In this document: positions 9,115 through 64,000 of the stretch, in pieces
Numbering within the stretch: position 1 is the stretch's first letter
How the letters are laid out: every line of letters starts with the position of its first letter
Source: Frondihabitans sp. PAMC 28766
GTDB taxonomy: Bacteria > Actinomycetota > Actinomycetes > Actinomycetales > Microbacteriaceae
Assembly: GCF_001577365.1 (NCBI RefSeq)
Contig: NZ_CP014516.1
Location: 8,451-72,450 of the forward strand
Length of the DNA stretch: 64,000 nt
Reading direction: 5' to 3'
Made by a program: the position numbers and the translations under genes
The notes under the pieces: model-generated
Databases searched by the model: none
Told to the model about the DNA's origin: nothing
What the model saw: the letters and a program-made list of their open reading frames with translations, nothing else

Positions 9115-9163
9115 CAGAAACCTTCCCGAGCGGTGGCGAGCGGTCGGTCTTCGGGGTTTCTCA

Positions 9164-9529: not shown

Positions 9530-9574
9530 GTTCTTCTCCTTCGATACGTTCTGGTTTTGAGCGGATGGTTCAGG

Positions 9575-9781: not shown

Positions 9782-9818
9782 CGGTGGTCCCTTTCAGACG
9801 GCCTGGTGGTGGTCATGG

Positions 9819-10868: not shown

Positions 10869-10872
10869 GGCC

Positions 10873-41268: not shown

Positions 41269-41286
41269 CATCAACACACACCTGGT

Positions 41287-41576: not shown

Positions 41577-41628
41577 AACGGCTTCGCTTGCATAGCTTTG
41601 CAGGCGTTGTTGCCGGAAGGATGATGTC

Positions 41629-42103
41629 ATGAATGCGCCGAATGGTGTGGCCTCACCAGACGGCCCGACTTCGGGCCTTGATCAGGTCCCTGAAAGCTCG
41701 TCCGAGGGTTTGTTGGATACGGAAAAGCGTTTGCGCAGTCTTCTCCGCGCTAATCGTGCGGTCATTGAGCAGCTCGAGTTGCCAGTGGTCCTTCGCACCA
41801 TCGTTGAGTCGGCTCTTGAACTCGTCGGCGCCCGATATGGCGGTCTTCGTGTCACTTCCGACGAGGGCGGCCTGGACGAGTTCGTCCATGTCGGAGCGGC
41901 CCCCGATGCACCGTCCAGGATCGGCCGTCAACCTCAGGGTTTAGGGGTCTTGAGCGCTATTCACGATGAGGGAAGACCGGTTCGTATCGCCGATATCGAG
42001 AAGGATCTGCGTTTTATGGGCTTCCCCGACGGGCATCCCCGGTTCCATTCGTTCCTCGGGGTTCCCATCACTCGTCGGGGGGCACCATTTCGGTACTCTT
42101 TAT
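41629..42103 (+). pseudogene. N-terminal part of a DevS-like GAF histidine kinase, cut by IS1380
   Basis: About 158 codons carrying a linker and the first GAF domain: RSLLRANRAVIEQLELPVVL, then SALELVGARYGGLRVTSDEG, then FHSFLGVPITRRG. The frame then departs from the family: removing one G from the G6 run at 42077-42082 restores HHFGTLY, which joins across the insertion to CGEKLSGEFTLDDEELLTGL at 43768. The ATG at 41629 has GGAAGGA upstream. In its present state it makes only a truncated GAF protein without kinase. Confidence 0.78.
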
Positions 42104-43762: not shown

Positions 43763-45000
43763 TTTATTGCGGCGAGAAACTCTCCGGCGAATTCACCCTT
43801 GACGACGAAGAACTTCTCACCGGGCTCGCTTTTACTGCTGGGATCGCCATCCACAATGCCCGCCAGTTGCTGGCGACCCGCCAGCGGGAACGCCGCGCCG
43901 ATATGTCGGCCGAGATCGCAATGTCGCTGGTTTCGAACGAACCGGAGGTCTCGCTTCGGCTCGTGGCCGACAGCGTCGCCAGTCTCACGCGAGTCGACCT
44001 TGTCTGCGTCGTGGCCGAAACAACTGAAGGTACCCTGATCATCGACCCGGCCCGAGGCCCCCTCGCCGAAGGCCTCGAAGGCCTCCACATCCCAGCGGAC
44101 GGCACTCAGATCGCCGCCGTTCTGCATGCCCAAGTTCCCTTTGTGAGCGCCGCCTTGGACATACTCGTCGGCACTCCCCACGCGCGGACGACGGGGCCGA
44201 TCATGCTGCTGCCTCTTTTTAGGCAAGGACAATCGATCGGGGTCCTCGTTGTTGCTCGGGCGCCGGGCGGTGCACCTTTCTCGGAGTCTGAGCTCGAGAC
44301 GATCGCCATGTTCGCTCGGCATGCCTCGCTGGCGATCGACGGCGCCCGGTTTCGAGCCGAGCGCCGACGCATCGAGACTCTGCAGGACCGTACGCGCATT
44401 GCGCGAGAACTCCACGACCACGTCATCCAGAGCATCTTCGCCGCTGGCCTTGACCTTCAGGCGATCCTCCGGAAATCGTCCGATGTTGAGTTGAACAAAC
44501 GGCTCGATCGCCCCATTGACATGCTCGACACGGTGATCTCAGAAATCCGAACTGCTGTCTTCGCCCTCAGGCCTGAACAACCTGGCGGGAATTTCTCCTT
44601 GCGGCGAAAACTGGTCAACCTTGTCACCGAGCTCGGTGGTCTCTTTCCAGAGACTCCCCGTCTGACCCTCGCTGGTCCTCTCGATCTGACGATCGACCCT
44701 GTCCTGGGAAACGATGTCGTCGCCGTCGTTCGCGAACACCTCGGGAACCTCAGCCAAGAGGGACAGGCCACGAAGGTGTCCATCGGGGTGTCCGTCACTG
44801 TTGACCAGGCCATCGTCGAGATCGCGGAAGACGATTCCAGGGAAGATACGGCGACGAACTCCCCACTGCTCGAGAGTCTCAAAGAGCGTGCGAATCATTG
44901 GCGCGGGTCGCTGCTGCTCGAGCAGGGAAAGCCGTCAGGAACTCGTTTGACCTGGATGGCGACGTTACCGACGCCGCGTCGAGGAGGGACTCATTCGTGA
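43763..45000 (+). pseudogene. C-terminal part of the DevS-like histidine kinase
   Basis: Begins mid-GAF (CGEKLSGEFTLDDEELLTGL, then FTAGIAIHNARQLLATRQRE), continues with a second GAF domain (LSLRLVADSVASLTRVDLVC-type region to APGGAPFSESELETIAM) and a HisKA_3 dimerisation domain with the phospho-acceptor His in RIARELHDHVIQSIFAAGLD. The ATPase domain is diverged: VVREHLGNLSQEGQA gives the N-box, but the G-box is EDDSREDTATN rather than DNGxG. ATG 43867 could start a shortened kinase. DevS-type kinases respond to redox or gas signals; no partner response regulator is nearby. Confidence 0.75.
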
Positions 45001-45078
45001 CAACGGATTTCCCCTAGAGGACCCAAGAGTGGGCGTCGTCGTCTCGTCGAACCAAACACCTCACGTAAGCCTCGCACG

Positions 45079-46254
45079 TCACTCCGCGTCGTGAACGCGC
45101 TCGTCCTGGTGCTGCTCAGCGGGCCCGCCCATTTTTCGGAGCATGGGCCAGGAGCCGCTCCGGATGAACACAGCGAGTAGCAGGGCGGCGAGGGCGAGGA
45201 ACCCGATATTGAGCCAACTGGTGTAGTTCCAGGTGATCGACGAGGTGACGATGCTGAGGTGCCGGTTGGTGGGCACGAGGCCGAGCGGGGTGAAGATCAG
45301 CTCGACAAGGTAGCCGGCCGCGACCATGGCGCTATAGAAGATGGCAGTGATGCGGATGGCAGCTTTGGCACCGTAGTACTTCTTGTAGATCAGAAGGATC
45401 GGGATGATGATCAGATCGGCGAAGATGAAGCTGACTACTCCTCCGAAACTGATTCCACCGTTCCAGAGTACGGCGGCGAGGGGAATGTTCCCCACGGAGC
45501 ACACAAAGCTCACCATCGCCAGGAGCGGTCCGATGAGAGGGTCGACGAGGAACGCCAGAGCTGGGTTCCCTTGGACGAAGAGGGCTCGAAGCGAGGCCTT
45601 CGGCACCCATGCCTCGAAAGCGCCAGCGATGCCGACGCCGATGACGATGTCCCTGAGGACCGAGGCCCAGTCCATGATGAAATAGCGGGACACGGACGTC
45701 ATTCCTGGCCGGGAGAAGAGCCGCTTCCAAAATTCGTTATCTCCGCCGATGGACATGTCCATGGCTGCGTGCCCCTCCATTGATCCGGGCAGTCCCTCGT
45801 TGGCATGGTTCCGGGCGGCGTCTTGAATTTTCCCGCGCATCCATAGTCGAAAGCCGAGCGCGATCAGGACGATCATGATCGGGCCGCCGACAAATTCGGC
45901 GACCGTGAACTGCCACCCCATCACGAACGCCAAGATCAGGCCGAGTTCTACGACGAGATTCGTGGAGGCGACCTCGAACGCCATCGCCGCTGACAGGCTC
46001 GCTCCCTTGCGGAACAGGGCACGCGCGAGAGCGGTCGCGGCGTAGGAACAGGAGGAGGACATCGCCCCAAGCCCTGTGGCGACGGCGATGGCCCGGGGGG
46101 AGTCGTCGTCCATGAGCTTCGTGATCCGCTCCTTGCGGACGACCGCTTGGATGACTCCGGACAAGGCGAAACCGAGGATCAAGGGCCACAGAATCTGCCA
46201 GGCCATTGATCCGGAGGCGGCCAAGGCGTCACCGATCTCAGACGCGATGAACAT
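45079..46254 (-). CDS. UPF0718/ArsP-type permease
   Basis: A 391-aa membrane protein with about eight to ten helices. The family signatures SSCSYAATALARALFRKGAS and FVCSVGNIPLAAVLWNGGIS are clear, and YFIMDWASVLRDIVIGVGIA begins the second half. The family includes ArsP exporters of organoarsenicals and other uncharacterised permeases; the substrate here is unknown, and the Cys in SSCSY and FVCSV may bind soft metals. It is the last gene of the minus-strand glutamate operon, 32 bases downstream of the VOC gene, but might be independently transcribed. Confidence 0.82.
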   Translation of the reverse strand: MFIASEIGDALAASGSMAWQILWPLILGFALSGVIQAVVRKERITKLMDDDSPRAIAVATGLGAMSSSCSYAATALARALFRKGASLSAAMAFEVASTNLVVELGLILAFVMGWQFTVAEFVGGPIMIVLIALGFRLWMRGKIQDAARNHANEGLPGSMEGHAAMDMSIGGDNEFWKRLFSRPGMTSVSRYFIMDWASVLRDIVIGVGIAGAFEAWVPKASLRALFVQGNPALAFLVDPLIGPLLAMVSFVCSVGNIPLAAVLWNGGISFGGVVSFIFADLIIIPILLIYKKYYGAKAAIRITAIFYSAMVAAGYLVELIFTPLGLVPTNRHLSIVTSSITWNYTSWLNIGFLALAALLLAVFIRSGSWPMLRKMGGPAEQHQDERVHDAE

Positions 46255-46286
46255 GACAGGCCTCCGTCACGGCTACTCGGGGATGG

Positions 46287-46691
46287 TTACCAGTCATAGA
46301 TTCGGGCGATGATCTCGGTCCGGGTGGTCTCATCGGGCCCGGGGAAGGAAACGAGGATCGGAACCTGGTCGGGGCCGACCCCTTCAACCAGGGTGAAGGC
46401 ATCGACCGTTGTCCGAGTCGCATGCGCCGATTGGGTGCGGAGGACATTTTCACACCGCATGAGGTCGTCGGGATCGGTTGCCGTCCAGATCAGATACTGG
46501 ATTCCGACGCCGCCGACGGGGTGCGGGGCCCGATCACCGAGCGCCCGAAGGTACAGCTGATCGTGGTCGGGAGTCCGAAAGAGCGCCGCGCTCGAGGAGA
46601 GTAGGGAGGGTTTGACCCCGAGCAGCTCTTCATAGAATCCGCGTGAGCGCTCAAGTTCGGTGACGAACATAACGGCGGAGGAAAGACGCAT
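46287..46691 (-). CDS. VOC-family protein (glyoxalase/dioxygenase-like fold)
   Basis: A 134-aa single-domain protein with paired beta-alpha-beta-beta-beta modules: RLSSAVMFVTELERSRGFYE ELLG, then DQLYLRAL and GIQYLIWTATDPDDL, ending in DQVPILVSFPGPDE. Some of the metal ligands typical of glyoxalase I are not obvious. Function unknown; such small proteins act in detoxification or antibiotic binding. It begins three bases after the glutaminase stop, indicating co-expression. Confidence 0.78.
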   Translation of the reverse strand: MRLSSAVMFVTELERSRGFYEELLGVKPSLLSSSAALFRTPDHDQLYLRALGDRAPHPVGGVGIQYLIWTATDPDDLMRCENVLRTQSAHATRTTVDAFTLVEGVGPDQVPILVSFPGPDETTRTEIIARIYDW

Positions 46692-46694
46692 TGT

Positions 46695-47681
46695 TCAGTC
46701 CCCGATTGTGGTCAGGACACTGGCGGGTTCCGGGATCACCGTTCGGGGACCGTTCCGGTAAAGGCTGAGGTTGAGGGTGCGCGTGATCTGGGTGATCGCC
46801 TGCTGTGCGCGGACACTGTTGCCTCGCTCGTCCAAGGGAGGTGAGTACGCGGCGATGGCGAGGACTCCGGGAACAACGGCGACAAGGCCGCCGCCGACAC
46901 CGCTTTTGCCGGGGAGGCCGACACTGTATGCCCAATCGCCGGAGGATTCGTAGAGTCCTTCCATCGTCATCTCGGCGAGGATATGCGGAACGTTGTCCGC
47001 TGTCACTGCCTGGTGCTGGGTGGTGGGGTTGATGCCACCGTTGGCGAGGGTGGCGCCGATGACTGCGAGGTCGGTGGTGGTGATCAGGGTGGAGCATTGG
47101 CGGGTGTACACGTCACAGACCCCCATCGGGTCCGCGTGCAGGTATCCCGCAGCTTGAAGCAGCCAGGCGATGCCTTTGTTGTGGGCGTTGGTCGCCTGCT
47201 CGGAGTCGTTGATCATGTCGCTGAGGGTGAGTTGTCGACCGGCGAACGTGCTCTGACCCTCGAGGATTGTCACCCAGCGGTGTTCGGCGCTCTCGGCGGG
47301 GATCAGGCTGGTCGCGGACATCGCGCCCGCGTTCACCAATGCGGACATGGGTTTATTACCGTGGAGGGCGAGAGCCATCACTGAGTTGAATGGTAATCCG
47401 GTCGGATCGGTACCAACTTTGCCGTGGAACTCCTCCGCACCGATGGCGTCCATGGCCAACGCCATGCTGACCACTTTGGAGATCGATTCGATGGCGAATT
47501 CGACGGTTGCGTCTCCGGCGGTGAAGGTGTCGCCACCAGTCGTGACAACACTGATGCCGAACAGGGTCGGATCCACAGTGGCCAGGGCAGGAATGTAGTT
47601 CGCGTTCGCTCCACCGCTGGTGTCCTTGGCCTGGATCCAGGCGTTGGCGACGGCTGTGGCGATGGCGTCAGAGGCCAGCAT
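46695..47681 (-). CDS. glsA: Glutaminase A
   Basis: A 328-aa serine-dependent enzyme that converts glutamine to glutamate and ammonia. The beta-lactamase-like motif FAIESISKVVSMALAM carries catalytic Ser and Lys; PFNSVMALALHGNKPMSALV, NAGAMSATSLIP, NKGIAWLLQAAGYL and VYTRQCSTLITTTDLA are all family signatures, and GLPGKSGVGGGLVAVVPG contains the conserved KSGVGG. The start overlaps the antiporter gene by 14 bases. The ammonia neutralises acid and the glutamate feeds the decarboxylase encoded in the same operon. Confidence 0.95.
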   Translation of the reverse strand: MLASDAIATAVANAWIQAKDTSGGANANYIPALATVDPTLFGISVVTTGGDTFTAGDATVEFAIESISKVVSMALAMDAIGAEEFHGKVGTDPTGLPFNSVMALALHGNKPMSALVNAGAMSATSLIPAESAEHRWVTILEGQSTFAGRQLTLSDMINDSEQATNAHNKGIAWLLQAAGYLHADPMGVCDVYTRQCSTLITTTDLAVIGATLANGGINPTTQHQAVTADNVPHILAEMTMEGLYESSGDWAYSVGLPGKSGVGGGLVAVVPGVLAIAAYSPPLDERGNSVRAQQAITQITRTLNLSLYRNGPRTVIPEPASVLTTIGD

Positions 47682-49248
47682 GGGTGGTGCCCTTTTTCGC
47701 GGTGCCAGCTAACTCATGGGGTGCTTTTGCCGACGTGGCCACGGTTCCCGGTGCGTGGTTTTCCATTTCCCAGGTAAACGGAGCGAAGTCGCTTTCGGGG
47801 TCGCGCCAGCTGGGGCGGCGCACCTGGTAGACGACGAACGGGACAGCGACGAACACCACTGTGAGAACGGCGAGCAGCCCGACATAGAAGACCGGGCTGC
47901 CGACGTCGATCTGGTTCGGGGGGATGAAGCTGAAGAACATGGCGGTGAGTGACCCGACGAAGCCGACGCCGGCCACAACCCACATGCCGACTTTTCCGCC
48001 CGGGACGCGGTAGGGGCGGGGCCTGTTGGGTTGCCTGGAGCGGAGCCGGATGGCTGCGGCGAACATCAGCAGGTACATCACCAGGTACAAGATCACCGTC
48101 AGTTGGCTGAGGATCTGATACACGGATTGGACGGATGGTAGGACCACGAACAAGGTGGCGAGGACGGTGACGATGATCGCTTGGCTGATCATAATGTTGG
48201 TGCCCATCCCGTTTTTGTTCGTCTTCTGGAAGAAGGGGGGAAGGTTGCCTGCTTTGGCGACGACGAGGAGGCCGGAGGAGGGTCCGCTGATCCAGGTGAC
48301 GATTCCGGCGAAGACGCCGATCGCCAGGGCGACGGCGATGATGGACCCGGCCCAGGGGATGTGTGCCCAGGTGAAGAGGTCGTTGTAGGCGGTCAGGAGG
48401 CTCTGGGTGAGGTTGATGCTTTTTTTGGGCACGATGAATGCCACCGCAAGGGTTCCGAGGACGAAGATCACGACGGTGCTCAGGGCGGCGATGAACAGCG
48501 CGATGGGGTAGTTCTTGGTCGGGTTCTTGACCTCTTTGACGTGGATGGCGTTCATTTCCATGCCGGCGTAGAAGAGGAAAATGCTGGCGGCGAGGACAAC
48601 GTTGCCGAAGTTGGTGAAATTCGGTACGAGCGCGGAGGCTGAGAAGGTGACTTGCGACCGGTTCCCGGTGATGACGTAAGCGAAACCAAGGACGATGAGG
48701 ATGCCGACGGGGACGATGGTGCCGATCATCCCACCCCATTTCGCCACCCGCGCGAACGCTTTCGCTCCTTTCAAGGCGATGAACGTTGCCAGCCAGTAGA
48801 CAGCGAGGACGATGGCAAGGATGAAGATGCTATTGCTGGCAAGGGAGGCATCGGCGGTGTGGTCGGGTCCGATGTATGCGAGGGCGACGGCGCCGAAGGT
48901 TAGGGCGGTCGGGAACCAGATGGTGACTTCGAGGACCAGCATGAACATTGCCACAATCGCTAGGCGTCGCCCGAACGCTTCACCGACCCACCGGAAGACG
49001 CCACCTTTTTCGGGCCACCCGGTGGCGAGTTCCGCGGCGACCAGGGCGGTCGGCACAAGAAACAGGATCGCGGCAAGGACGTAGTAGAAGATCGAAGCGA
49101 GGCCGTACTCGGCGATTGAGGGGAGACCGCGCAAGCTGACGACGGCGACGATGTTCAGCATCGCGAGCCCGAAAATGCTGATCGATGCGGCCTTGGTGGC
49201 CTTACTCTTTGGGGGCGAGGCCAGGGGTGTGTTCGTTGCCGTAGACAT
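47668..49248 (-). CDS. Glutamate/GABA-type antiporter, APC superfamily
   Basis: A 526-aa transporter with 12 predicted helices, related to GadC and YjeM-like antiporters. SIFGLAMLNIVAVVSLRGLP is TM1 and VVLAASIFLFYAGMEMNAIH is the TM6 signature; HVKEVKNPTKNYPIALFIAA follows. It should exchange external glutamate (or glutamine) for internal GABA. It lies between the decarboxylase gene (17 bases upstream) and the glutaminase gene, giving a complete glutamine-dependent acid-resistance set. Its C-terminal tail may plug the pore as in GadC, but this cannot be read from sequence. Confidence 0.87.
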   Translation of the reverse strand: MSTATNTPLASPPKSKATKAASISIFGLAMLNIVAVVSLRGLPSIAEYGLASIFYYVLAAILFLVPTALVAAELATGWPEKGGVFRWVGEAFGRRLAIVAMFMLVLEVTIWFPTALTFGAVALAYIGPDHTADASLASNSIFILAIVLAVYWLATFIALKGAKAFARVAKWGGMIGTIVPVGILIVLGFAYVITGNRSQVTFSASALVPNFTNFGNVVLAASIFLFYAGMEMNAIHVKEVKNPTKNYPIALFIAALSTVVIFVLGTLAVAFIVPKKSINLTQSLLTAYNDLFTWAHIPWAGSIIAVALAIGVFAGIVTWISGPSSGLLVVAKAGNLPPFFQKTNKNGMGTNIMISQAIIVTVLATLFVVLPSVQSVYQILSQLTVILYLVMYLLMFAAAIRLRSRQPNRPRPYRVPGGKVGMWVVAGVGFVGSLTAMFFSFIPPNQIDVGSPVFYVGLLAVLTVVFVAVPFVVYQVRRPSWRDPESDFAPFTWEMENHAPGTVATSAKAPHELAGTAKKGTTHAGL

Positions 49249-49264
49249 GAATGTCTTCTGCTTT

Positions 49265-50647
49265 CTAGTGGTGGAAAGACGGTTGCGCCTCGAGAGGCAT
49301 CGGGGATTCCAGCCGCTCCAGGTAGTCGGTTTGCTTGGCCATATCGACCAGGAACCGGTCGGCGAGGTCCATGCTCAGGCCGTTGCGCACCACGATTCTC
49401 TGCACCGTGATGTTGGTGAGGTCAGCTGGCATCGGATAAGCCGGGACGAGCCATCCTTCTGTGCGGAGCCGGTCTGAGAGGTGGTAGAGGTTCCAGTTCC
49501 TGGTCGGGTCATCTTTCAGCCGCCAGGCGAAAACGGGGATGTCGCTTCCGTCGTTCCAGAGGTCGAAGGGGCCGAGGTTGGCGATACCTCGGGCGAGGTG
49601 TTTGGCGACGTCCTGCGAGGCCTGCTGCACCTGGGTGTATCCATCTCGCCCCAGCCGGAGGAACAGGTAGAACTGCAGCAGCACCTGGGAAGCGGGGCGG
49701 GAGAAGTTCAACGCGAACGTCGGCATGTCACCGCCCAGGTAGCTGACCTTGAAAATCAGGTCCTCAGGCAACAGGTCCGCGGTCCGCCAGATGACCCAAC
49801 CAAGACCTGGGTAGACGAGACCATATTTGTGACCGGAGGTACTGATGGAGTGCACCCGTTCCAGACGAAAATCCCATTCCAGATCCGGTTGCAGGAACGG
49901 GGCGATCATCCCGCCGGAAGCAGCGTCCACATGGATGGCAATATCAAGCCCGGTGTTCGCCTGAATGTCGTCGAGCGCGTTGGCGATCTGTGTCACCGGC
50001 TCGTACATCCCCGTGTAGGTGACACCCAAAATCGCGACGACACCAATCGTGTTCTCATCGACATACGCCGCGAGGTTATGCCCGTCGAACGTTTTGTGGT
50101 CTTCCGTGATCGGAACATAGCGGGGTTCGATGTCCCAGTAGTTGCAGAACTTCTCCCAGCACACCTGCACCGCAGAACTCATCACCATGTTCGGTCGGTC
50201 CGTCGATTTCCCGGCCGCCCTTCGCGCCTGCTGCCACCGCCGTTTCAGTGCCAGCCCGCCAAGCATGCACGCTTCGGAGGAGCCCACCGTCGACGTCCCC
50301 ATCGCACCAGCAGGGTCGGGTGCATGCCACAGGTCGGCAAGTATCCGCCAGCAATTCACCTCAATCTCCGCTGTTTGCGGGTACTCGTCCTTATCGATCA
50401 TGTTCTTATCGAACGTCTCGGCGTAAAGCCGGTTCGCGTGATCATCCATCCAGGTCCCCACGAACGTGGCAAGGTTCAGCCTCGCATTACCGTCGAGCAT
50501 CGCTTCGTCATGCACAATCTGGTACGCCGTCTCGGGCAGCATCTGCCCCTCACCAAGCTGGTATTTCGGGGCGACCGTGTCCTCGCCGGGGCGAGCGAAC
50601 AACGGGTTCAGGGTCACGTTGTCGCGGGGACCTGTAGTTTTCGTCAA
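49265..50647 (-). CDS. gadB: Glutamate decarboxylase (PLP-dependent)
   Basis: Converts glutamate to GABA and CO2, consuming a proton. About 460 aa, like E. coli GadB (466 aa). PLP Lys near 274 lies in STSGHKYGLVYPGLGW; IHVDAASGGMIAPF holds the Asp that pairs with the PLP nitrogen, and GTSTVGSSEACMLGGLALKR binds phosphate. The N-terminal half has LDGNARLNLATFVGTWMDD, typical of bacterial GAD. No ATG lies in a suitable place: TTG 50647 gives the family length, and GTG 50618 is an alternative. First gene of the acid-resistance operon. Confidence 0.93.
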   Translation of the reverse strand: MTKTTGPRDNVTLNPLFARPGEDTVAPKYQLGEGQMLPETAYQIVHDEAMLDGNARLNLATFVGTWMDDHANRLYAETFDKNMIDKDEYPQTAEIEVNCWRILADLWHAPDPAGAMGTSTVGSSEACMLGGLALKRRWQQARRAAGKSTDRPNMVMSSAVQVCWEKFCNYWDIEPRYVPITEDHKTFDGHNLAAYVDENTIGVVAILGVTYTGMYEPVTQIANALDDIQANTGLDIAIHVDAASGGMIAPFLQPDLEWDFRLERVHSISTSGHKYGLVYPGLGWVIWRTADLLPEDLIFKVSYLGGDMPTFALNFSRPASQVLLQFYLFLRLGRDGYTQVQQASQDVAKHLARGIANLGPFDLWNDGSDIPVFAWRLKDDPTRNWNLYHLSDRLRTEGWLVPAYPMPADLTNITVQRIVVRNGLSMDLADRFLVDMAKQTDYLERLESPMPLEAQPSFHH

Positions 50648-51108
50648 GGTTTGTATCTCGTCTCTTGGGGGATTGGATGCGCCAACGACCGCTTGGTGGT
50701 GCGTCCTCTGGTGTGGTTTGTAGTTGTGCACATCTGGTAGCGGTTGCACCTCGCTCACCGGGCCGGCGTTGAGGTTGCATGAGGTGTTGACGGCAGTTAA
50801 GCCTGGGGGGAAGCCGTCGGCCAGTGCCGAAGGTCCTGCGCTATTCGTTGACCATGACCGTTTTCCGCGGTGCAATCGCGGAATGCTCTTGTGGTGACGT
50901 ACCTGCGGTAAAGCCCAACGGTGAGGAGGAGAGTGTGTTGCCCCAACCAACGTTTCAGCGGTGGCATCGAGTGGGGTGAAGAAGTCGCTGCAGGAAGGTG
51001 TCGCGGGAGGCTGGCGTTCTGATGACGGTTAGGTGGTGATGGTCCGTCCACGGGTAAGGAGGCTGGCGGGTCTTAAGGGTTCCGCTGCCGGGTCGCTGTT
51101 GTAACTGC
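50648..51108. other. Upstream region of the glutamate decarboxylase operon
   Basis: The decarboxylase frame stays open to 50950, but the residues encoded before 50647 do not resemble the family, so this stretch is taken as promoter/leader. No convincing gene, operator or terminator was recognised on either strand. Confidence 0.4.
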
Positions 51109-55086: not shown

Positions 55087-56541
55087 TTAGTACCGGGGTT
55101 TGTTCCATGCCACGATCAGAGCGTTGTGCAGGAGAAATATCCTGCGGGCGTTAAATGCGACAGGTGTTGCCTTTCTGTAGACGAAGTCGGTACGGTCAAC
55201 CTGGTTTTCGAAACGCGTACGAATCCCAATGGCCCCCGTCTCATACAGCTGACGTAACAACCGTTTGGTCTCAGGCTCGGAGACTTCGCCCTCGAGATCC
55301 TGTTGGATATCGTGCAAGGTAAATTCCGCTGACCGAACACCGTTGAGGGATTCAAAGAAGGACTGAGTCTTTTGCTGCCGGCCGGTCTGGTCAGACAAGA
55401 TTCCCGCCAGATTGTTCCTTACTTCTCCGACGAAGTACTGCTCGGAATAGTTGTGAACAGCAAGGACGGCGTCGGACTCGGTGACCGGCGTGGAGCCGGG
55501 ATGGACCTCCTGCAAGTGACCCAGAAGGGCGATCAGATCTCGGGGCAGCAAGCGAGTGTAGGCGAGTAGATACTCCGGTATCCGCTCGTAGGGTCCCTGC
55601 CCGATATCCCGCGCCAGATAAGTGTCAATAAACGATTTTACGGACGGCTGAGACACGTGCATCTTGTGATCGACAAGCGCCCAAAGTTTGCTGCTAGCGC
55701 CGACGCCGGAAGGACTCCAGTCGAGGTAAACCGTGTGCGACTTGAGTTTGTTAGAGTCCGTGCTTTCGAGGGCCTCAAACGCCTCCGTCCTGACTGCTGC
55801 GACTACCGTGACCGGCAAATCTTGCCCCGCTAAAAATCTGTTCACGGATTCAATCGCGTGAATTAGGCCCGCCAATGAGGCCCAGTCATCGTTCGTTTCC
55901 AAGAAGAAAGAATCTAACCCGTCGACGGAGATGACATGGCGGCTACTTGTTTGAACGGTTGCCAACGCGGCTCTCAGGACGGCCGCCACTTCAAGGGGGC
56001 CGAGGGGAGTGCTGTCGACATCGACGCCGAACGGACCCAGGGCAAAACGAAAAGTGGACTTCGTGCTCGACCAGCGGGCGACGCTGAGCTTCCAGTCATC
56101 CGGAAGAAGGCCGGCTTTGACGAGTTCCTTTTGAAGCGAATAAAAGTCGCCCGGAGCATCCAGCCCCTGGTCCCGAGTAAGAGACTCGATTACACGGAGA
56201 AGGAGCAGGAATTCCCAAGCCGACTGAGTACGTGAGGAGCCTTGCGTTTGACCCGTCTGGATGAGGGTCACATCGGCTACAGGAAAACCGCGAAGGTCCC
56301 AGGGCACAAAGAACCGGTCATAGCGCCCGGCCCATTTCAGCCGTATGTGCTCGAAAACTGCAGACTTTCCTGCTCCCTTGGGGCCAAGGATGAACCATGC
56401 CAAGCCGGTACTCATCAGATAAACAGAGTCCCGATAGTCTAGGTATCCCTCAAGGAGCAATTCCGGATCGATGATCGCCTCATCGTTCGCATCGAGGCGT
56501 CCCAGATGAATTGTTCGAAGCGGGGGCGGCTTAATCGACAT
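55087..56541 (-). CDS. P-loop ATPase, Sll1717-like, probable defence gene
   Basis: A 484-aa STAND-like ATPase. Walker A FILGPKGAGKSAVFEHI lies near residues 50-66, Walker B VISVDGLDSFFLETNDDW follows, and a C-terminal winged-helix region (LHDIQQDLEGEVSEPETKRL, RQLYETGAIGI) ends the protein. This arrangement matches what I know as the Sll1717 family, which occurs beside restriction systems and in other defence islands. It has lower GC than its neighbours. It diverges from hsdM with a 163-base gap. The effector mechanism is unknown; it has no visible nuclease domain. Confidence 0.72.
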   Translation of the reverse strand: MSIKPPPLRTIHLGRLDANDEAIIDPELLLEGYLDYRDSVYLMSTGLAWFILGPKGAGKSAVFEHIRLKWAGRYDRFFVPWDLRGFPVADVTLIQTGQTQGSSRTQSAWEFLLLLRVIESLTRDQGLDAPGDFYSLQKELVKAGLLPDDWKLSVARWSSTKSTFRFALGPFGVDVDSTPLGPLEVAAVLRAALATVQTSSRHVISVDGLDSFFLETNDDWASLAGLIHAIESVNRFLAGQDLPVTVVAAVRTEAFEALESTDSNKLKSHTVYLDWSPSGVGASSKLWALVDHKMHVSQPSVKSFIDTYLARDIGQGPYERIPEYLLAYTRLLPRDLIALLGHLQEVHPGSTPVTESDAVLAVHNYSEQYFVGEVRNNLAGILSDQTGRQQKTQSFFESLNGVRSAEFTLHDIQQDLEGEVSEPETKRLLRQLYETGAIGIRTRFENQVDRTDFVYRKATPVAFNARRIFLLHNALIVAWNKPRY

Positions 56542-56704: not shown

Positions 56705-57391
56705 TTGAGTTCGAATCATGCGTCGTTCATTTGGTCCATCGCGGACCTGCTCCGCGGCAGCTTCAAAGCGCACCAGTACGGCGACATTGTTCTCCCGTTC
56801 ACGGTCCTCCGCCGCCTCGACGCCGTCCTCGCCCCCAACAAAACCGAAGTCCTCGCGGCCGTCCGTGATGCCGAAGCGCAGGGCATCCCCGTCCGCCCGG
56901 CCCTGCTCAGGGCTCGGGCGGCCCATCAGTACTCGTTCTTCAACACGTCCCGCTTCGACCTGAAGGCGGTGCTTGGGGATCCGGAGAACATCACCGCGAA
57001 CCTCCTCGACTACGTGTCCGGGTTCTCGGAAAACGTGCGGGACATTTTCGATAAGTACAAAATCGTGGACCGGTTCCACGAACTCGACGACGCGGGCCTC
57101 CTGTTCCTTGTCACCCAGAAGTTTTCGGAGGTGGATCTGTCTCCGGGGGTGGTGCCGAATGAGGAGATGGGGCACATCTTCGAAGAACTCATCCGGAAGT
57201 TCGCGGAAGCATCCAATGAGACCGCGGGTGAGCACTTCACCCCCAGGGACGTCATCGAGTTGATGGTCGACCTACTCCTCACCCCCGACACCGACGCCCT
57301 CACCACCCCGAACGCGGTCCGCTCCATCTACGACCCGACCGCCGGCACCGGGGGATGCTGTCGGTCGCGGAGGACCACATCCGGCAGATGA
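56705..57391 (+). CDS. hsdM: Type I restriction-modification methyltransferase HsdM, N-terminal part
   Basis: HsdM methylates adenine in the recognition site and forms the core of the M2S complex. This part has the helical HsdM_N domain (SSNHASFIWSIADLLRGSFK, HQYGDIVLPFTVLRRLDAVL) and the start of the catalytic domain (AGEHFTPRDVIELMVDLLLT). It then breaks exactly at motif I: DPTAGTGG turns into CCRSRRTTSGR. One additional G in the G5 run at 57350-57354 restores GTGGMLSVAED and fuses it to the next frame. TTG start with an excellent GGAGG seven bases upstream. Confidence 0.88.
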   Translation: MSSNHASFIWSIADLLRGSFKAHQYGDIVLPFTVLRRLDAVLAPNKTEVLAAVRDAEAQGIPVRPALLRARAAHQYSFFNTSRFDLKAVLGDPENITANLLDYVSGFSENVRDIFDKYKIVDRFHELDDAGLLFLVTQKFSEVDLSPGVVPNEEMGHIFEELIRKFAEASNETAGEHFTPRDVIELMVDLLLTPDTDALTTPNAVRSIYDPTAGTGGCCRSRRTTSGR

Positions 57392-58668
57392 ACCCGACCG
57401 CGAAACTCACCCTGGCGGGGCAGGAGATCAACCCGCAGTCCTACGCCATCTGCAAAGCGGACATGACCGTCAAAGGTCAACCCGTCGACGCGATCGTCTT
57501 CGGCGACACCCTCCTTGATGACGGCCACCCGAACGCCACCTTCAACTACTGCCTCTCCAACCCGCCCTTCGGCGTCGACTGGAAAAAGCAGCAGAAACAC
57601 GTCACCGAGGAACACACGCTGCGGGGGTTCGCGGGCCGGTTCGGGCCGGGGCTCCCGCGGGTGTCGGACGGGTCGATGCTGTTCCTGATGCACCTGATCT
57701 CCAAAATCCGTCCCGCCACCGACACCACCCCCGGCGGGCGCGCCGGCATCGTCCTGAACGGCAGCCCGCTGTTTACCGGCGGGGCGGGGTCGGGGGAGTC
57801 GAACATTCGACGGTGGGTCCTCGAACGCGACTATTTGGAAGCGATCATCGCCCTCCCGACGGACATGTTCTACAACACCGGCATCGCCACCTACCTGTGG
57901 ATCCTCACCACCAAAAAACACCCCGACCGGGCCGGGAAAGTGCAGTTGGTGGACGGGACGAAACTGTTCCGGAAAATGCGGAAAGGCCTCGGGTCTAAAC
58001 GCAACGAACTCTCCCCGGACAACATCACCGAAATCGTTCGCCTCTACGGAGAAAACAGCGAGTCCAAAACGTCGAAGGTGTTCCCGCGGGAAGCGTTCTA
58101 CTACCGCACCATCACCGTCGAACGCCCCCTCCGCCGCAACTGGACCGTCACCCCCGACCGGCTCGACACCCTCCTCCTGGAAAAGCCGATCCTCAAACTT
58201 GACCTCGAGCAGCAGGCCGCCCTCCGGGAAGCGCTTGAAGGCATGGGGCAGGAGAGGGTATGGAAGAACCGGGACACCTTCACCCGCGACCTGAAAACCG
58301 CACTCAAGAGCGCGCACCTCACCGTGCCGGGGCCGGTGCTGAAGACGATCCTCAACGCCCTCGGGGAACAAGACGACACCGCCGACGTCTGTGTCGACGC
58401 GAAAGGGCGACCGGAACCGGATCCATCGTTGCGGGACACGGAGAACGTGCCCTGGGACCAGAACCTCAACGACTACTTCGACCGGGAAGTCCGCCCCTTC
58501 GCCCCTGATGCATGGATCGACGACACCAAAACGAAAGACGGCGCCGAGATCCCCTTCACCCGCCACTTCTACGAATACGTCCCACCACGGGCCCTCGAAG
58601 AAATCGACGCCGACCTCGACATCGTCCTCGGCCGCATCCGCACACGCCTCGAACACGTCAAAGCATGA
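57355..58668 (+). CDS. hsdM: HsdM, C-terminal part (same gene, next frame)
   Basis: 437 residues beginning MLSVAEDHIRQM, the direct continuation of HsdM after motif I. The catalytic motif IV NPPFGVDWKK is intact, as are LMHLISKIRP and GRAGIVLNGSPLF. The ATG at 57355 comes right after the G5 run and overlaps the first part by 37 bases; it could be reached by re-initiation, but a split at motif I would be inactive unless the two halves assemble. A base-calling error or a genuine one-base deletion are both possible. It overlaps hsdS by four bases. Confidence 0.88.
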   Translation: MLSVAEDHIRQMNPTAKLTLAGQEINPQSYAICKADMTVKGQPVDAIVFGDTLLDDGHPNATFNYCLSNPPFGVDWKKQQKHVTEEHTLRGFAGRFGPGLPRVSDGSMLFLMHLISKIRPATDTTPGGRAGIVLNGSPLFTGGAGSGESNIRRWVLERDYLEAIIALPTDMFYNTGIATYLWILTTKKHPDRAGKVQLVDGTKLFRKMRKGLGSKRNELSPDNITEIVRLYGENSESKTSKVFPREAFYYRTITVERPLRRNWTVTPDRLDTLLLEKPILKLDLEQQAALREALEGMGQERVWKNRDTFTRDLKTALKSAHLTVPGPVLKTILNALGEQDDTADVCVDAKGRPEPDPSLRDTENVPWDQNLNDYFDREVRPFAPDAWIDDTKTKDGAEIPFTRHFYEYVPPRALEEIDADLDIVLGRIRTRLEHVKA

Positions 58669-59972
58669 CGCAGGCAGCCTGGCCCGTCCTTCCTCTAAAA
58701 CGTCACTTACTTCGTAACGACGGCGGCTTTTGGGGTGATGAGCCCGTGGGCGAGAATGACACTCTCGTGTTGAGGTCGACGGAGCAGACAGCCGAAGGCA
58801 CTTGGGCGATTTCTGATCCCGCCTGGCGCCATCTGCCTGCGCTCAGACGGGAGGTTTCGCGGCTAAGGGCAGGGGATCTGCTTGTGACGAAATCGAGCGG
58901 GAGTTCCCTGCACTTAGGCAAGACGACGTTTGTCACGGCCGATGAGGAGTCTCTGCGGGCTGGGTTTTCAAATTTCATGCAGCGGTTGCGAACGGACGAA
59001 GACCTCGTCACCGAGTTTGCGTGGTACGCCATGAGGTCGCGGTTTGTCCGGGATCAAATCGACTTGCTTTCCACCACATCAACAGGCCTTGCCAATCTCA
59101 CGGCTAGCGCGTTGGGTGACCTCGTTATACCAGTTCCCACAGTCTCAGAGCAGCGCATGGCCGTGCAGTTTTTGGATCGGGAGACGGGGGAGATTGATGC
59201 GTTTATTCGGGATCAGGAGGAGCTGATCGGGTTGCTGCAGGAGCAGCGTGCCGCGACGATCAGCCACGCCGTCACCAAAGGACTCAACCCAGACGCGCCG
59301 CGCGTGCAAAGCGGAACTGCCTGGGGAAAAATCCCGGCACACTGGCGCCCAGCACCCCTGAAGCACGTTGCGAATCTGCTTGCCGGATTCCCGTTCGCCA
59401 GCGAGGTTTTTCGGCACGACTTGAACTCGATCTCGTTGCTTCGCGGTATCAACGTGGGCGTCGGAGAAATTGACTGGACGGAACGGGTCGGATGGCCGCG
59501 CGATCTGAGTGGTGGTCTCTCGGTTTACGACCTGAAAGATGGAGATCTAGTTCTCGGACTGGACCGCCCCGTAATTTCGCGGGGAATTCGCTTGGCCCGC
59601 ATGTGCCCGAGTGACCTTCCGGCCCTGCTCCTGCAGCGTGTCGCCCGCCTACGCGCCACGGACGGTGCATTGAACACTTTCCTTGAGTACGTTCTGTGCG
59701 GGGCGGAGTTCCGGAACTACATCGAGCCGCTTTTCACCGGGGTGAGCGTTCCGCACCTTAGCATCGACCAGCTCGGGGCTTTCGTGATACCGACACCGCC
59801 TCGGGGAGAGCAGAGCGCCATAAGCAGCTACCTCGAAAGTGAGTTGCAGCTCATCGACGCATCTATTTCAGACGCGAATGCCGCCGTGGAGTTGTCACGT
59901 GAGCGTCGTTCGGCGCTGATTTCGGCTGCCGTGACGGGGAAGATTGATGTGCGTGAGCACGTGGGGGTGTGA
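58665..59972 (+). CDS. hsdS: Type I restriction-modification specificity subunit HsdS
   Basis: A 435-aa DNA-recognition subunit with two target-recognition domains (roughly 1-180 and 210-390) separated by conserved helices. Each half ends with the same pattern: LGDLVIPVPTVSEQRMAVQF, then IRDQEELIGLLQEQRAATIS HAVTKG, and IDQLGAFVIPTPPRGEQSAI, then ELSRERRSALISAAVTGKID. ATG 58665 overlaps the hsdM stop (ATGA). The second recognition domain has lower GC than hsdM and hsdR, as often seen when HsdS domains are exchanged. The recognition site cannot be predicted. Confidence 0.9.
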   Translation: MTQAAWPVLPLKRHLLRNDGGFWGDEPVGENDTLVLRSTEQTAEGTWAISDPAWRHLPALRREVSRLRAGDLLVTKSSGSSLHLGKTTFVTADEESLRAGFSNFMQRLRTDEDLVTEFAWYAMRSRFVRDQIDLLSTTSTGLANLTASALGDLVIPVPTVSEQRMAVQFLDRETGEIDAFIRDQEELIGLLQEQRAATISHAVTKGLNPDAPRVQSGTAWGKIPAHWRPAPLKHVANLLAGFPFASEVFRHDLNSISLLRGINVGVGEIDWTERVGWPRDLSGGLSVYDLKDGDLVLGLDRPVISRGIRLARMCPSDLPALLLQRVARLRATDGALNTFLEYVLCGAEFRNYIEPLFTGVSVPHLSIDQLGAFVIPTPPRGEQSAISSYLESELQLIDASISDANAAVELSRERRSALISAAVTGKIDVREHVGV

Positions 59973-59975
59973 CGG

Positions 59976-62900
59976 GTGTCCATTTTGCATGAGGACGCGT
60001 TCGAGTCGGAGCTGTGCGCTCACCTGGCGGCGAACGGGTGGTTGTATTCGCCGTCGGATGCGGGTTATGACCGGGAGCGTGCCCTGTTCCCGGAGGACCT
60101 GTTCGGGTTCCTGGCGGAGACCCAGCCTGACGTCCTGGCGAAGGTCGTCAAACCGGAGGGGACCCCAGCGCAGCAAGCGCAGGCTCATGCCCGGGTCCTT
60201 GACCGGGTGGTGCGGGTGTTGGGAACGGACCCGATGAATTCCGGTGGGACGTTGAACGTGTTGAAGCGGCCTGTGTCCGTCACCCCGGCCACGTTTTCCT
60301 TGTTTCAGCCGCGGCCGGCGTCGGGGTTGAATGCGACGACGGAGGCTGCGTTTGTGGCGAACAGGGTGCGGGTGATGCGGCAGGTGTCGTATTCGACCCG
60401 GAACGGGAACCGCCTCGACCTGGTGTTGTTCGTCAATGGGGTCCCGGTGGCGACGGTGGAGCTGAAAACGGATTTGACGCAGAACGCGGGCGCGGCGTTG
60501 AAGCAGTATGCGCAGGACCGAAACCCGGTGGGGGAGCCTTTGTTGGAGTTCGGGCGGGGCGCCCTGGTGCATTTCGTGGTGTCGAACGAGTTGGTGTTCA
60601 TGACCACGAAGCTCGCCGGGGTGAACACGTACTTTCTGCCCTTCAACCAGGGGCGGAATAACGGTGCGGGGAACCCGGCGCGGGTGGGGACGTCGCCGAC
60701 GGCGTTCTTCTGGGAGGAAACCCTCCAGCGGGAAACCTGGCTGGACATTGTGGGCCGGTTTTTGCATTACCGGTTCGAGGAACGCCAGGACCCGTTGACG
60801 GGGGCGAAGACGTATGACCGGCAGGTGCGGTTCCCGAGGTATCACCAGTGGCGTTCCGTCACCAAACTCGAGACCACCATCCGGGAAGAGGGCCCGGGTG
60901 GCAGTTATTTGGTGCAGCATTCTGCGGGGTCGGGGAAAACGGATTCGATCGCGTGGACCGCGCACCGGATGGCGTCCCTGCACACTCCTGAAGGAATCAA
61001 GGTGTTCGACGGGGTGATTGTGGTCTCGGACCGGCAGGTCCTCGACGGGCAACTGCAACGCGCGGTGGAGCAGTTGGAGTCCCGTCCCGGTGTCTTCGAG
61101 GGCATCACCGCCGGCACGGACGGGTCGAAGTCCGCGCAGCTGGCGAAAGCTCTGTTGGCGGGCCGGCAGATTATCGGGGTGACGTTGCAGACGTTCCCGT
61201 ATGCCTTGGATGTGATCGAGAAGGATGTGGGTCTGGCGGGGCGGACGTATGCGGTGATCGCGGATGAGGCGCACTCGTCCCAGACGGGTGAGGCGGCAGC
61301 GTCGTTGAAGCAGGTCCTCACCGCCCACGCCGCCGACGATGCGGATGGGGTGGTGGATGCGGAGGATGTCCTCGCGGATGTCATGGCCCGCAACGTGGGT
61401 ATCGGGTCCTTGTCGTTTTTGGCGTTTACGGCGACGCCGAAGGGGAAGACGCTGGAGTTGTTCGGCCGGCCGGATCCGGTGTCGGGGGTGCCGGGGCCGT
61501 TTGATGTGTATTCGATGAAGCAGGCCATCGAGGAGGGGTTCATCCTCGACGTGTTGAAGAACTACCTCCCCTACGACCTCGCGTTCAACGTCGCCCACGC
61601 GCACGCGGACCGGGATGTGGAGGTGGACACACAGAAGGCGAACACGGAGTTGATGCGGTGGGTGCGCCTGCACCCGGTGAACATCGCCCAGAAAGTCGCC
61701 GTCATCGTGGAGCACTTCCGCGCCAACGTCGCCTCGGAGCTGGGCGGCAGGGCGAAAGCGATGGTGGTGACCGCATCCCGGCTGGAGGCGGTCCGGTACA
61801 AGAAACAGATCGACGCCTACATTCGCGACCATAACCTCACCGAGGAGGTAGGAACGCTGGTGGCGTTTTCCGGGTCGGTCACCGACCCGGATACCGGGCA
61901 GGCGGACATCACCGAAACCACCCTGAACCCGGGGTTGAAGGGCCGCCGTCTGGAGGCGGCGTTCGCGGGGGGTGACTTCCAGGTGATGATTGTGGCGAGC
62001 AAGTTCCAGACGGGTTTTGATCAGCCGCTTCTGGTGGGGATGTATGTGGACAAGAAACTGTCCGGCATCACCGCCGTGCAGACCCTGTCCCGCCTGAACC
62101 GGGTGATTCCGGGGAAGGAGAACACGTACGTTCTCGACTTCGTCAACGACCCTGACGAGATCTTGGCCGCGTTCCAGGTGTACTTCGAAGAAGCGGTGTT
62201 GACGACCCCGTCGGACCCGGACGTGATTCACGACATGCTCGGGAAAATGCAGGGCATGCACATCATCGATGAGTACGACGTGGAGCAGGTGGTGGATGCG
62301 TGGATCAACAAGATCAGCAACAACACCCTTTACTCCCGCATCCGCACCTCCCGCGACCGGTTCTGGGACCGATGGCGCACCGCCACCGACACCAGCGACG
62401 ACCTGGAACTGGCACGCCTGGAGGATTTCCGGGGCACGGTCAACGCGTTCGTGCGTGCGTATGACTTCCTGTCGCAGATCATCAACTACGAAGACACCAG
62501 GGTGGAGAAGTGGGCGATCTTCCTCCGCGTGTTCCGCCGGGTCATCGAACGGGACGAACCCCAAGCGCCGGTGCTGGATCTGGATGATGTGATCCTCACC
62601 CATTACCGGTTGCGGCGCCTGGACCAGAAATCCCTGGGCCTGACCGGTGGGGATGCCGGGGAGCTCGCCGGCATCACCGAGGGCGGGTCGGGGCAGGCGC
62701 GGGAGACGAAGTACGGGTGGTTGTCGGAGATCATCGACCAGCTGAACACCCTGTTCGCCGGGTCCGGGTTGGGGGAGACGGACCAGGTGAACAGTTTCGA
62801 GTCCGTGTTCCGGCACGCCGTCGATAACCCGCAGCTGCAAGCCGAAGCGATGGCCAACACCCAAGCGGACTTCGACACCTCCCCCACCATCCACACCCAA

Positions 62901-63734
62901 GTCGAAGAGCTGCTCTACACGGCGGGGGACGGGCATCAGAAAGCGATCGCCGCCCTGCTGCAGATGGACGACATCACCGGCCTCATCAAAGTCCTGTTGC
63001 GGGCGGGGTTGTATGAGCAGCTCCGCGGGGCCGCGACCGGCGAGGCCCCGCCGGCCGTCCAGGCATCGGCCGGGGTTCGCCGGTCCGCGACATTTCCCGC
63101 ACCCGCTGCCCGGGAACCGGCCGTCAGTACGGAAACGGCCCCTTTGTCGGTGCGGGGTGTGGACGGCTGGGACCTGGCCACCTGTGCTCGGTGCGGGAGC
63201 CCTCGCGACACCTCGGGGCGGAGCATTTTCTGTTCCGGGTTCTGCGCCGACTACGCGGCAGACGTGCGGTACTTCCGGCGGAAGTACGCCAACGCGGAAC
63301 ATACCGACCCGGACGTGGCATACGCCCTGAACGTCCGGCTGGCGCACCTGGTCTCCGGCGGATACGACCGGCAAGCCCGGTCACTTCCTGCCTCGGTTCG
63401 TGCCAGCGTGTTGCAGAAGAACGACGGCCAGTGCCGAGCATGCAACGTCGCGGCCGCGGTGGAGGTCGACCACATCGACGGCTCCAGTGACGCCTCCGAC
63501 AACCTGCAGGGACTCTGTGTGGCGTGCCACCGGCAGAAAACCGCCGCCCGGTTGGTGCCGATGACCCGGGAATGCGCCCGGGTGCGGGACGAGTTCCTCA
63601 CGCAGGTGCGGGTCGGGCAACCAACCCGGGACGTGTTCGACGAGGTCCACTGGTCAACAGGATTGCAACGCGAATACGCAGCAGCTGCCCGGACGGGCCG
63701 GCCACCAGCAACGGGGCGGGAAGGTAATGCCTAA
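59976..63734 (+). CDS. hsdR: Type I restriction endonuclease HsdR with C-terminal zinc finger and HNH extension
   Basis: A 1252-aa motor and nuclease. The N-terminal PD-(D/E)XK nuclease has VATVELKT (Glu162, Lys164). The helicase has Walker A SAGSGKT near 316-322 and DEAH at 430-433, followed by LAFTATPKGK and VASKFQTGFDQP. Standard HsdR would end around residue 1040. Here an extra 190 residues hold a Cys4 zinc finger (CARCG near 1070; FCSGFC near 1085) and an HNH nuclease: CRAC at 1153-1156, VEVDHIDG with Asp1165-His1166, and CVACH at 1181-1185. GTG start, three bases after the hsdS stop. Confidence 0.92.
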   Translation: MSILHEDAFESELCAHLAANGWLYSPSDAGYDRERALFPEDLFGFLAETQPDVLAKVVKPEGTPAQQAQAHARVLDRVVRVLGTDPMNSGGTLNVLKRPVSVTPATFSLFQPRPASGLNATTEAAFVANRVRVMRQVSYSTRNGNRLDLVLFVNGVPVATVELKTDLTQNAGAALKQYAQDRNPVGEPLLEFGRGALVHFVVSNELVFMTTKLAGVNTYFLPFNQGRNNGAGNPARVGTSPTAFFWEETLQRETWLDIVGRFLHYRFEERQDPLTGAKTYDRQVRFPRYHQWRSVTKLETTIREEGPGGSYLVQHSAGSGKTDSIAWTAHRMASLHTPEGIKVFDGVIVVSDRQVLDGQLQRAVEQLESRPGVFEGITAGTDGSKSAQLAKALLAGRQIIGVTLQTFPYALDVIEKDVGLAGRTYAVIADEAHSSQTGEAAASLKQVLTAHAADDADGVVDAEDVLADVMARNVGIGSLSFLAFTATPKGKTLELFGRPDPVSGVPGPFDVYSMKQAIEEGFILDVLKNYLPYDLAFNVAHAHADRDVEVDTQKANTELMRWVRLHPVNIAQKVAVIVEHFRANVASELGGRAKAMVVTASRLEAVRYKKQIDAYIRDHNLTEEVGTLVAFSGSVTDPDTGQADITETTLNPGLKGRRLEAAFAGGDFQVMIVASKFQTGFDQPLLVGMYVDKKLSGITAVQTLSRLNRVIPGKENTYVLDFVNDPDEILAAFQVYFEEAVLTTPSDPDVIHDMLGKMQGMHIIDEYDVEQVVDAWINKISNNTLYSRIRTSRDRFWDRWRTATDTSDDLELARLEDFRGTVNAFVRAYDFLSQIINYEDTRVEKWAIFLRVFRRVIERDEPQAPVLDLDDVILTHYRLRRLDQKSLGLTGGDAGELAGITEGGSGQARETKYGWLSEIIDQLNTLFAGSGLGETDQVNSFESVFRHAVDNPQLQAEAMANTQADFDTSPTIHTQVEELLYTAGDGHQKAIAALLQMDDITGLIKVLLRAGLYEQLRGAATGEAPPAVQASAGVRRSATFPAPAAREPAVSTETAPLSVRGVDGWDLATCARCGSPRDTSGRSIFCSGFCADYAADVRYFRRKYANAEHTDPDVAYALNVRLAHLVSGGYDRQARSLPASVRASVLQKNDGQCRACNVAAAVEVDHIDGSSDASDNLQGLCVACHRQKTAARLVPMTRECARVRDEFLTQVRVGQPTRDVFDEVHWSTGLQREYAAAARTGRPPATGREGNA

Positions 63735-64000
63735 AACGCGTTGGCAGGTGGCCGCGAACACGGCGGCAGAGTCTTGGCGAAATATCCGTTCCCTTCGCGC
63801 GGACCCGCCCGTCACCCTTCACGACGTCCTCAAGGTCGGGTCACGGCGGGACGTATTTCAGGCCGGGCTCGAACAGGCGCAGCAGCAGTTCACTGCGGCC
63901 GCCCAGATCGGATACGCCAGCCGCCCACTGAACCTGTTCTACGGTCTCGCGCAAGCCGGCCGCGCCGTCGCCGCCGCCAGCGACCAGCTCAGAGGCAACC
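63727..64000 (+). CDS. YaaC-like protein, 5' part (cut by window end)
   Basis: Begins ATG 63727 behind AAGG and overlaps the hsdR stop by eight bases. The visible 91 residues read ESWRNIRSLRADPPVTLHDV, then GLEQAQQQFTAAAQIGYASR and PLNLFYGLAQAGRAVAAASD, which resembles the N-terminus of the YaaC family. That identification is from recollection. YaaC function is unknown, but its linkage to restriction operons suggests a defence role. The 3' end lies outside the window. Confidence 0.65.
   Translation, partial: MPKTRWQVAANTAAESWRNIRSLRADPPVTLHDVLKVGSRRDVFQAGLEQAQQQFTAAAQIGYASRPLNLFYGLAQAGRAVAAASDQLRGN

Follow-up and report, generated by a model that had tools for sequence, protein, structure and literature searches.

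Introduction

HNH-Cascade systems, in which Cas3 is missing and an HNH nuclease domain is carried by Cas8, are reported in type I-E and type I-F forms (PMC11459484, PMC11822464), and a Cas5-HNH form is known from the titles of PDB entries. In another study, an engineered fusion of cleavage-dead BamHI with a phage HNH domain nicks DNA near the BamHI site (PMC8845596), so a tethered HNH domain can work. HNH domains are also used by modification-dependent enzymes such as TagI (PMC6212794, PMC12707154). None of these proteins is an HsdR, the R subunit of a type I restriction-modification (R-M) enzyme, with a second nuclease. The term 'HNH' is absent from the main text of a 2013 review of type I enzymes (PMC3874165), and the titles and opening lines of abstracts listed by our searches of open-licence PMC papers name no HsdR-HNH fusion. 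Here we describe an hsdR gene that continues in frame into an HNH endonuclease sequence, in a 64,000-nucleotide stretch of DNA from Frondihabitans sp. PAMC 28766 (hereafter the window).

The window corresponds to positions 8451-72450 of contig C4 (72,450 bp), one of four contigs in a 4.77-Mb genome. We took C4 to be a circular plasmid because the frame of a yaaC-like gene runs from the end of the contig into its start. The reading that we favour, and consider reasonably probable, is that hsdR in a plasmid-borne hsdM-hsdS-hsdR-HNH-yaaC operon recently lost its stop codon and ran into a neighbouring HNH gene, at a locus that is probably dead for restriction.

Results

The fusion occupies positions 59976..63734 of the window on the plus strand, as one open frame of 1252 amino acids that begins with GTG and has no internal stop codon. 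Residues 1-1023 (59976..63044; the end is approximate and was placed as in ordinary relatives) form the HsdR core, which contains an HSDR_N PD-(D/E)XK nuclease match at residues 127-212 (60354..60611, with D148, E162, and K164) and an SF2 motor at residues 290-722 (60843..62141), the latter covered by the Pfam families SWI2_SNF2, ResIII, and T1R_D3-like. A linker of 35 residues (1024-1058; 63045..63149), without counterpart in either HsdR or HNH relatives, leads to the HNH protein at residues 1059-1252 (63150..63734). An in-frame GTG stands at 63150, and homology to free-standing HNH proteins begins at their start. By motif and alignment, the tail includes a Cys4 zinc-finger-like site (C1070, C1073, C1086, and C1090; 63183..63245) and an HNH motif from C1153 to H1185 (63432..63530), with further cysteines at 1156, 1181, and 1184 and with D1165, H1166, and N1176. 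A first-pass annotation had reported this frame, its strand and length, the VELKT motif, the motor, the Cys4 site, and an HNH motif with its own Cys pairs, all of which we recovered from the sequence. It had also proposed that one type I motor carries two nuclease sites of unrelated kinds, and both sites do retain their residues. This two-nuclease HsdR-HNH architecture is new as far as we have searched.

Residues 1 to about 1023 are, judged from sequence, an ordinary HsdR with the D148/E162/K164 nuclease and a full motor. The nuclease and motor motifs are VELKT (161-165), HSAGSGKT (315), DEAH (430), TATP (485), TGFDQP (679), and QTLSRLNR (702). In the first 722 residues, Pfam gave matches above cut-off for HSDR_N (52.9 bits; cut-off, 25.1), SWI2_SNF2 (61 bits), T1R_D3-like (38.5 bits), and ResIII (30.4 bits). 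PADLOC called this part a type I REase, the nearest PDB chain in a sequence search was EcoR124I HsdR, and the named relatives bear type I R subunit names. The NCBIfam model TIGR00348 (hsdR) matched at 146.4 bits (E = 1.1e-42), which does not reach its subfamily cut-off of 284.55.

A search of 5.8 billion proteins yielded 8000 scored candidates, all of which matched HsdR. The best 120 of the 8000, which we examined, share 58-93% identity with it, are 984-1056 residues long, and extend at most 28 residues past the aligned part. The closest listed relative, P0002 (93% identity), ends in ...LRSAATGD; the window's protein reads ...LRGAATGE and then continues. At 321 conserved columns defined from 106 more distant relatives, the HsdR core has 7 unusual residues, 6 of them common to P0002, and the 14 closest relatives have 4 to 8. 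The core is thus, on this comparison, not worn and still constrained, and this conservation would make both the fusion event and the damage to the operon (below) recent.

The tail appears to correspond to an entire free-standing HNH protein of actinobacteria: the homology begins at the start codon, and metal and catalytic residues are kept. Its alignment with free-standing proteins begins at their N-termini (MVRGTW/MAQGAW against MRGVDGW), with 29-48% identity in two alignments. Such relatives, including WP_043795086.1 on pACHL01, P0122-P0124, and L114, are encoded by genes of about 195-345 codons. In an alignment of the tail with six relatives, two of which (P0123 and P0124) are nearly alike, 35 columns were invariant in all seven rows; these include all eight cysteines and tail residues D107, H108, N118, and H127 (add 1058 for HsdR numbering). 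The tail-family tree has long branches, that of the window included, and served only for counting free-standing members, which make up 13 of 14.

In profile searches, Pfam found no HNH domain in the whole protein at E 0.001, and the tail alone scored 19.9 bits against a PF01844 cut-off of 21.4, which 3 of the 6 proteins scanned passed. At E 0.01, the tail matched 20 PHROG families, of which 19 are named HNH endonuclease, with a best value of 1.8e-11. In a PDB profile search it matched HNH enzymes, the best being the GVE2 HNH protein (5h0m; E = 5.3e-08), with ZRANB3 (5mkw; E = 2.8e-07) also among them, and its N-to-H spacing of 9 is the same as in both. A structure model of HsdR residues 53-1252 had a mean predicted local distance difference test score (pLDDT) of 53.7, with the tail below 50, and a Foldseek search gave no significant match.

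We searched for other fusions in several ways. These searches addressed this HNH family; fusions with unrelated HNH domains were detectable only at loci that were inspected. When the tail was compared with proteins of fusion length, none of 1336 candidates matched at E 0.001, the reach being relatives that share 5-residue words. An HNH motif pattern that recovered four positive controls (P0001 and P0122-P0124) was absent from all of the best 120 of 8000 HsdR relatives, and from all 144 frames of at least 850 residues found at 121 loci, which were mostly those of HsdR relatives and included some duplicates. Twelve loci picked for long open frames and inspected singly showed nothing HNH-like; two of them, L018 and L292, are the same place. 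At L061, L070, and L075, an unrelated HNH-like gene lies near hsdR as a separate frame. The place represented by L018 and L292 (G253) is of interest in its own right, as its 1176-residue HsdR has an unrelated C-terminal extension past the usual end and is thus a second lengthened HsdR.

We scanned a profile of the tail against 396 phylum-level and 299 family-level genomes, this genome among them, and scored 7 or no more than 10 candidates in each; 142 and 116 of these genomes, respectively, gave some match. Among the matches listed, 11 other than the window's had E values below 1e-20, and these lie in frames of 144-346 codons, some of which are pieces; the window's frame has 1253. Weaker, generic HNH matches among those listed sit in frames of varied length, one of them of 1210 codons in G956. 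We considered the latter as a further fusion and took it to be, probably, Cas9; its neighbour on L261 begins like Cas2 by eye. An order-level scan with HsdR matched 154 of 396 genomes, with 2 candidates scored in most; the HsdR-core matches listed never carry the tail, and tail-only matches, as in G159, are separate genes. In a scan that had no positive control, this HsdR had no match in six same-genus genomes; one same-genus genome, G1050, has the same kind of tail match.

Among plasmids, 1687 records matched HsdR, 44 of them over at least 80% of the query, and none of the best-listed 20 aligned past residue 1096; three plasmid records matched the tail. No record of the phage collection matched the tail. 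Viral contigs held 91 tail relatives; the 80 retained mostly align over just the HNH core (best E = 1e-7) and not over the whole tail. The annotation had suspected that HsdR-HNH fusions are rare, and no second case turned up in any of these searches; on this evidence, the fusion looks unique and recent.

We also inspected the surroundings of free-standing tail relatives. None of 16 such loci, in stretches of 6.5 to 18.5 kb, shows a match to HsdR, HsdM, HsdS, or YaaC; two of these loci are apparently the same place and two lie at contig ends. The tail family is therefore a scattered free-standing gene, and among the loci inspected its adjacency to hsdR is particular to this plasmid. On pACHL01, the tail relative sits amid mostly hypothetical genes together with ligA and an RNA ligase gene, a neighbourhood that looks phage-like.

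The sequence between the two parts was then considered for traces of the joining event. In the linker (63042-63149), GC content by codon position is 0.75/0.75/0.72, compared with 0.64/0.41/0.86 in the HsdR core, and the periodicity expected of coding DNA is thus weak in the linker. At third positions, 26 of 36 linker codons (counted from 63042) end in G or C, which is lower than the 877 of 1022 in the core (p = 0.03). All three forward frames are open over the linker. Random 108-mers were free of stop codons in a given frame in 79% of cases with linker-like composition and in 54% when drawn from the window. GC-rich DNA thus keeps frames open, so that the loss of a stop would often yield such a fusion. 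The in-frame GTG at 63150 lies where the free-standing relatives begin.

Upstream of the fusion, hsdM is broken. Its 5' piece (56705..57391, plus strand), which covers HsdM_N and the start of N6_Mtase, loses its frame at five consecutive G (57353-57357) inside the cofactor-binding motif, and the rest of N6_Mtase continues in another frame (57355..58668, plus strand; Pfam). The gene is a single unbroken frame in all five relatives that hold it whole, among seven loci inspected. The next gene, hsdS (58512..59972, plus strand), was identified by domain search, and in our judgement its true start is probably further in. An intact hsdM beside hsdS and hsdR, which we took as the mark of a working type I R-M system, is not present here. 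We considered slippage at the G run as a source of whole HsdM and set it aside, judging the upstream sequence to be unlike a classical slippery site.

The genome has two further N6_Mtase genes, on contigs C3 and C1. The C3 gene, which adjoins an interrupted hsdR, shares about 29% identity with this HsdM, and as far as this gene indicates, supply of HsdM from elsewhere in the genome is doubtful. The C3 genes belong to a second type I R-M locus (L299, positions 7504-11150 of G000:C3), in which hsdR seems to be interrupted by a transposase pair on the opposite strand, as judged by eye and from weak tblastn matches.

Downstream, the ATG of the yaaC-like gene (63727..64000, plus strand) overlaps the stop codon region of the HNH part by 8 nucleotides. 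The gene spans the junction of the contig ends, and close to its 3' end the frame is lost, again at a G run. Just upstream of the R-M operon, a gene for a Sll1717-family P-loop ATPase (55087-56541, minus strand) is oriented away from hsdM. C4 also has VirD4/TraG-like and SCO6880-family genes. Further off in the window, positions 40039-50950 encode an ammonium transporter, an ArsP-type permease, a glutaminase, GadC, and glutamate decarboxylase, which looks like an acid-stress set.

Discussion

We propose that the hsdR stop codon was lost and that reading would now run on, without a change of frame, across some 105 bases that used to be intergenic and into a neighbouring gene for a free-standing HNH endonuclease, whose old GTG start would have become an internal codon. 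The product would consist of HsdR, a probably flexible linker, and a Cys4-finger/HNH domain. This domain would lie close to the part of HsdR that contacts the methylase core at its terminus, and by kinship with the GVE2 HNH protein and ZRANB3 it may still cut or nick DNA. With hsdM broken, little or no sequence-directed restriction would be expected, and the fusion may be a tolerated by-product rather than a dual-cutting machine. In the absence of M, directed activity of the fusion should be slight, and nicking by a free HNH domain is possible. Stop loss is the simplest route, although the route itself is inferred, and the fusion is most likely accidental and recent.

Some observations weigh against this account. 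The tail and yaaC are absent from all 109 hsdR loci (L003-L111; flanks of 1.5-6 kb, in some cases truncated at a contig end), and neither these 109 loci nor the 16 tail loci include a relative in which hsdR stands next to this HNH gene, so the two-gene ancestor is a deduction. The third-position signal of the linker is weak, as 17 of 986 core windows are equally low. Moreover, the catalytic residues of the tail are all kept, as selection for a working fusion would also give. Separately, an intervening nuclease gene does occur in another type I operon: on a Roseomonas mucosa plasmid (L122, 2244-3182), a free-standing GIY-YIG nuclease gene lies between hsdS and hsdR with a 4-nucleotide overlap with each.

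A reason to doubt the fused frame itself is that hsdM and yaaC, in the same operon, are both out of frame at G runs. Frameshifts at G runs are a pattern of long-read errors, and we therefore tested the assembly. If hsdR and the HNH gene were two genes and a wrong base had erased the stop, a base substitution in the former stop would be compatible with the sequence. Errors of length are another matter: between 63036 and 63149, none of 71 distinct deletions and none of 72 homopolymer insertions would end HsdR before the HNH part, and only 4 of 343 insertions of any kind would. The open state of all three forward frames across the linker points the same way, as does the rest of the assembly, in which none of 47 chromosomal orthologues (16,796 amino acids, compared with genome G921) is split between frames, 8 of the 10 scanned plasmid genes have family matches that reach, or nearly reach, both ends (the remaining two being weak or partial), and an Lhr-like helicase of 1594 residues, identified by eye, is whole here and in pieces in G1050. 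A separate gene joined by assembly error, the possibility raised at first pass, is thus not what we found, as no linker homopolymer-length error splits the frame; an assembly fault is unlikely, and we give the erased-stop version only a small chance. The G1050 helicase gene (G1050:C1, 1086638-1091442) has pieces in differing open frames, which suggests an error-rich assembly or decay in that same-genus genome.

If the frame is genuine, its tail could still be put to other uses. The HNH protein might be made separately from the old GTG at 63150, beside or instead of the fusion and compatibly with it; the codon that was probably the ancestral start lies in frame, ahead of a complete domain, but there is no RGGAGG site on the plus strand between 62884 and 63150 and no sigma-70-like promoter in 62700-63400 (other promoter types lay outside the scan), and we regard this as a minority prospect. 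We consider it very improbable that the tail serves purely as a structural zinc module and has no nuclease activity: it does have a Cys4 finger and falls just under the Pfam HNH cut-off, but D, H, N, H and the metal cysteines are invariant in all seven rows, and the PHROG and PDB matches are to HNH proteins. A mere zinc ribbon without the catalytic His, which the annotation had named as the case that would undo its proposal, is accordingly unlikely, the His being kept in the tail alignment. Insertion of a homing endonuclease was also considered, and the evidence on it is neutral. A larger claim is that of a selected dual-nuclease type I enzyme, supplied with HsdM by frameshifting or from another locus, in which the tethered HNH domain nicks or cuts near the docked methylase core and the PD-(D/E)XK nuclease cuts where motors stall. 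Both active sites are intact, the HsdR core is under constraint, HNH modules serve other targeting complexes, as in HNH-Cascade, and a motor, zinc finger, and HNH domain occur together in ZRANB3. Against it stand the single case in the searches made, an hsdM out of frame in its cofactor motif, a C3 N6_Mtase of only distant identity beside a transposase-interrupted hsdR, and a linker without counterpart. An evolved dual-nuclease enzyme is possible but unsupported, and its selection seems improbable to us; we hold it equally improbable that this is a functional two-nuclease R subunit, whose methylase-docking end bears a captured HNH nickase on a flexible arm so that cuts close to the bound complex supplement the distant ones made by the PD-(D/E)XK site, caught at birth before it could spread. 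On roles with modified DNA or against phage anti-restriction proteins, which the annotation had also suggested, our findings are neutral. The suggestion that the second nuclease makes a working or selected device for double cutting or back-up is not supported: the tail is absent from the closest listed relatives, it is a complete gene product joined at its own start, and hsdM is out of frame.

If genuine and expressed, the fusion offers a snapshot of domain gain by restriction motors, in which one lost stop would give a two-nuclease protein without intermediate steps. A genuine fusion would allow a direct test of whether a type I motor benefits from a second nuclease, is harmed by it, or ignores it, and the tail-less sister enzyme, 93% identical, is a natural control. 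If the operon is dead, the locus is a case of decay that resembles innovation and a caution for surveys of domain architecture.

Among known systems, the type I R subunit of the EcoR124I/EcoKI HsdR kind shares with the fusion its PD-(D/E)XK nuclease, its SF2 motor, and its place in an operon with hsdM and hsdS; the fusion differs in having some 200 additional residues that hold an unrelated second nuclease. The free-standing actinobacterial Cys4-HNH proteins correspond to the whole tail domain from its start, with metal and catalytic residues, but they have their own genes, without an hsd match at any of the 16 loci. The GVE2 phage HNH nickase (5h0m), which shares a zinc-finger motif with the tail and has a beta-beta-alpha-metal fold, is the best PDB sequence match to the tail, but it is a single-domain phage protein. 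ZRANB3 combines an ATP-driven SF2 motor (SNF2), a zinc finger (NZF), and an HNH domain in one chain (PMC12841045); it is a human fork remodeller whose six listed domains do not include a PD-(D/E)XK nuclease. Its finger and motor are of other families, and we treat it as a functional analogue only. HNH-Cascade (Cas8-HNH and Cas5-HNH) is RNA-guided, and there HNH replaces the Cas3 helicase-nuclease, whereas the fusion described here adds HNH to a helicase-nuclease.

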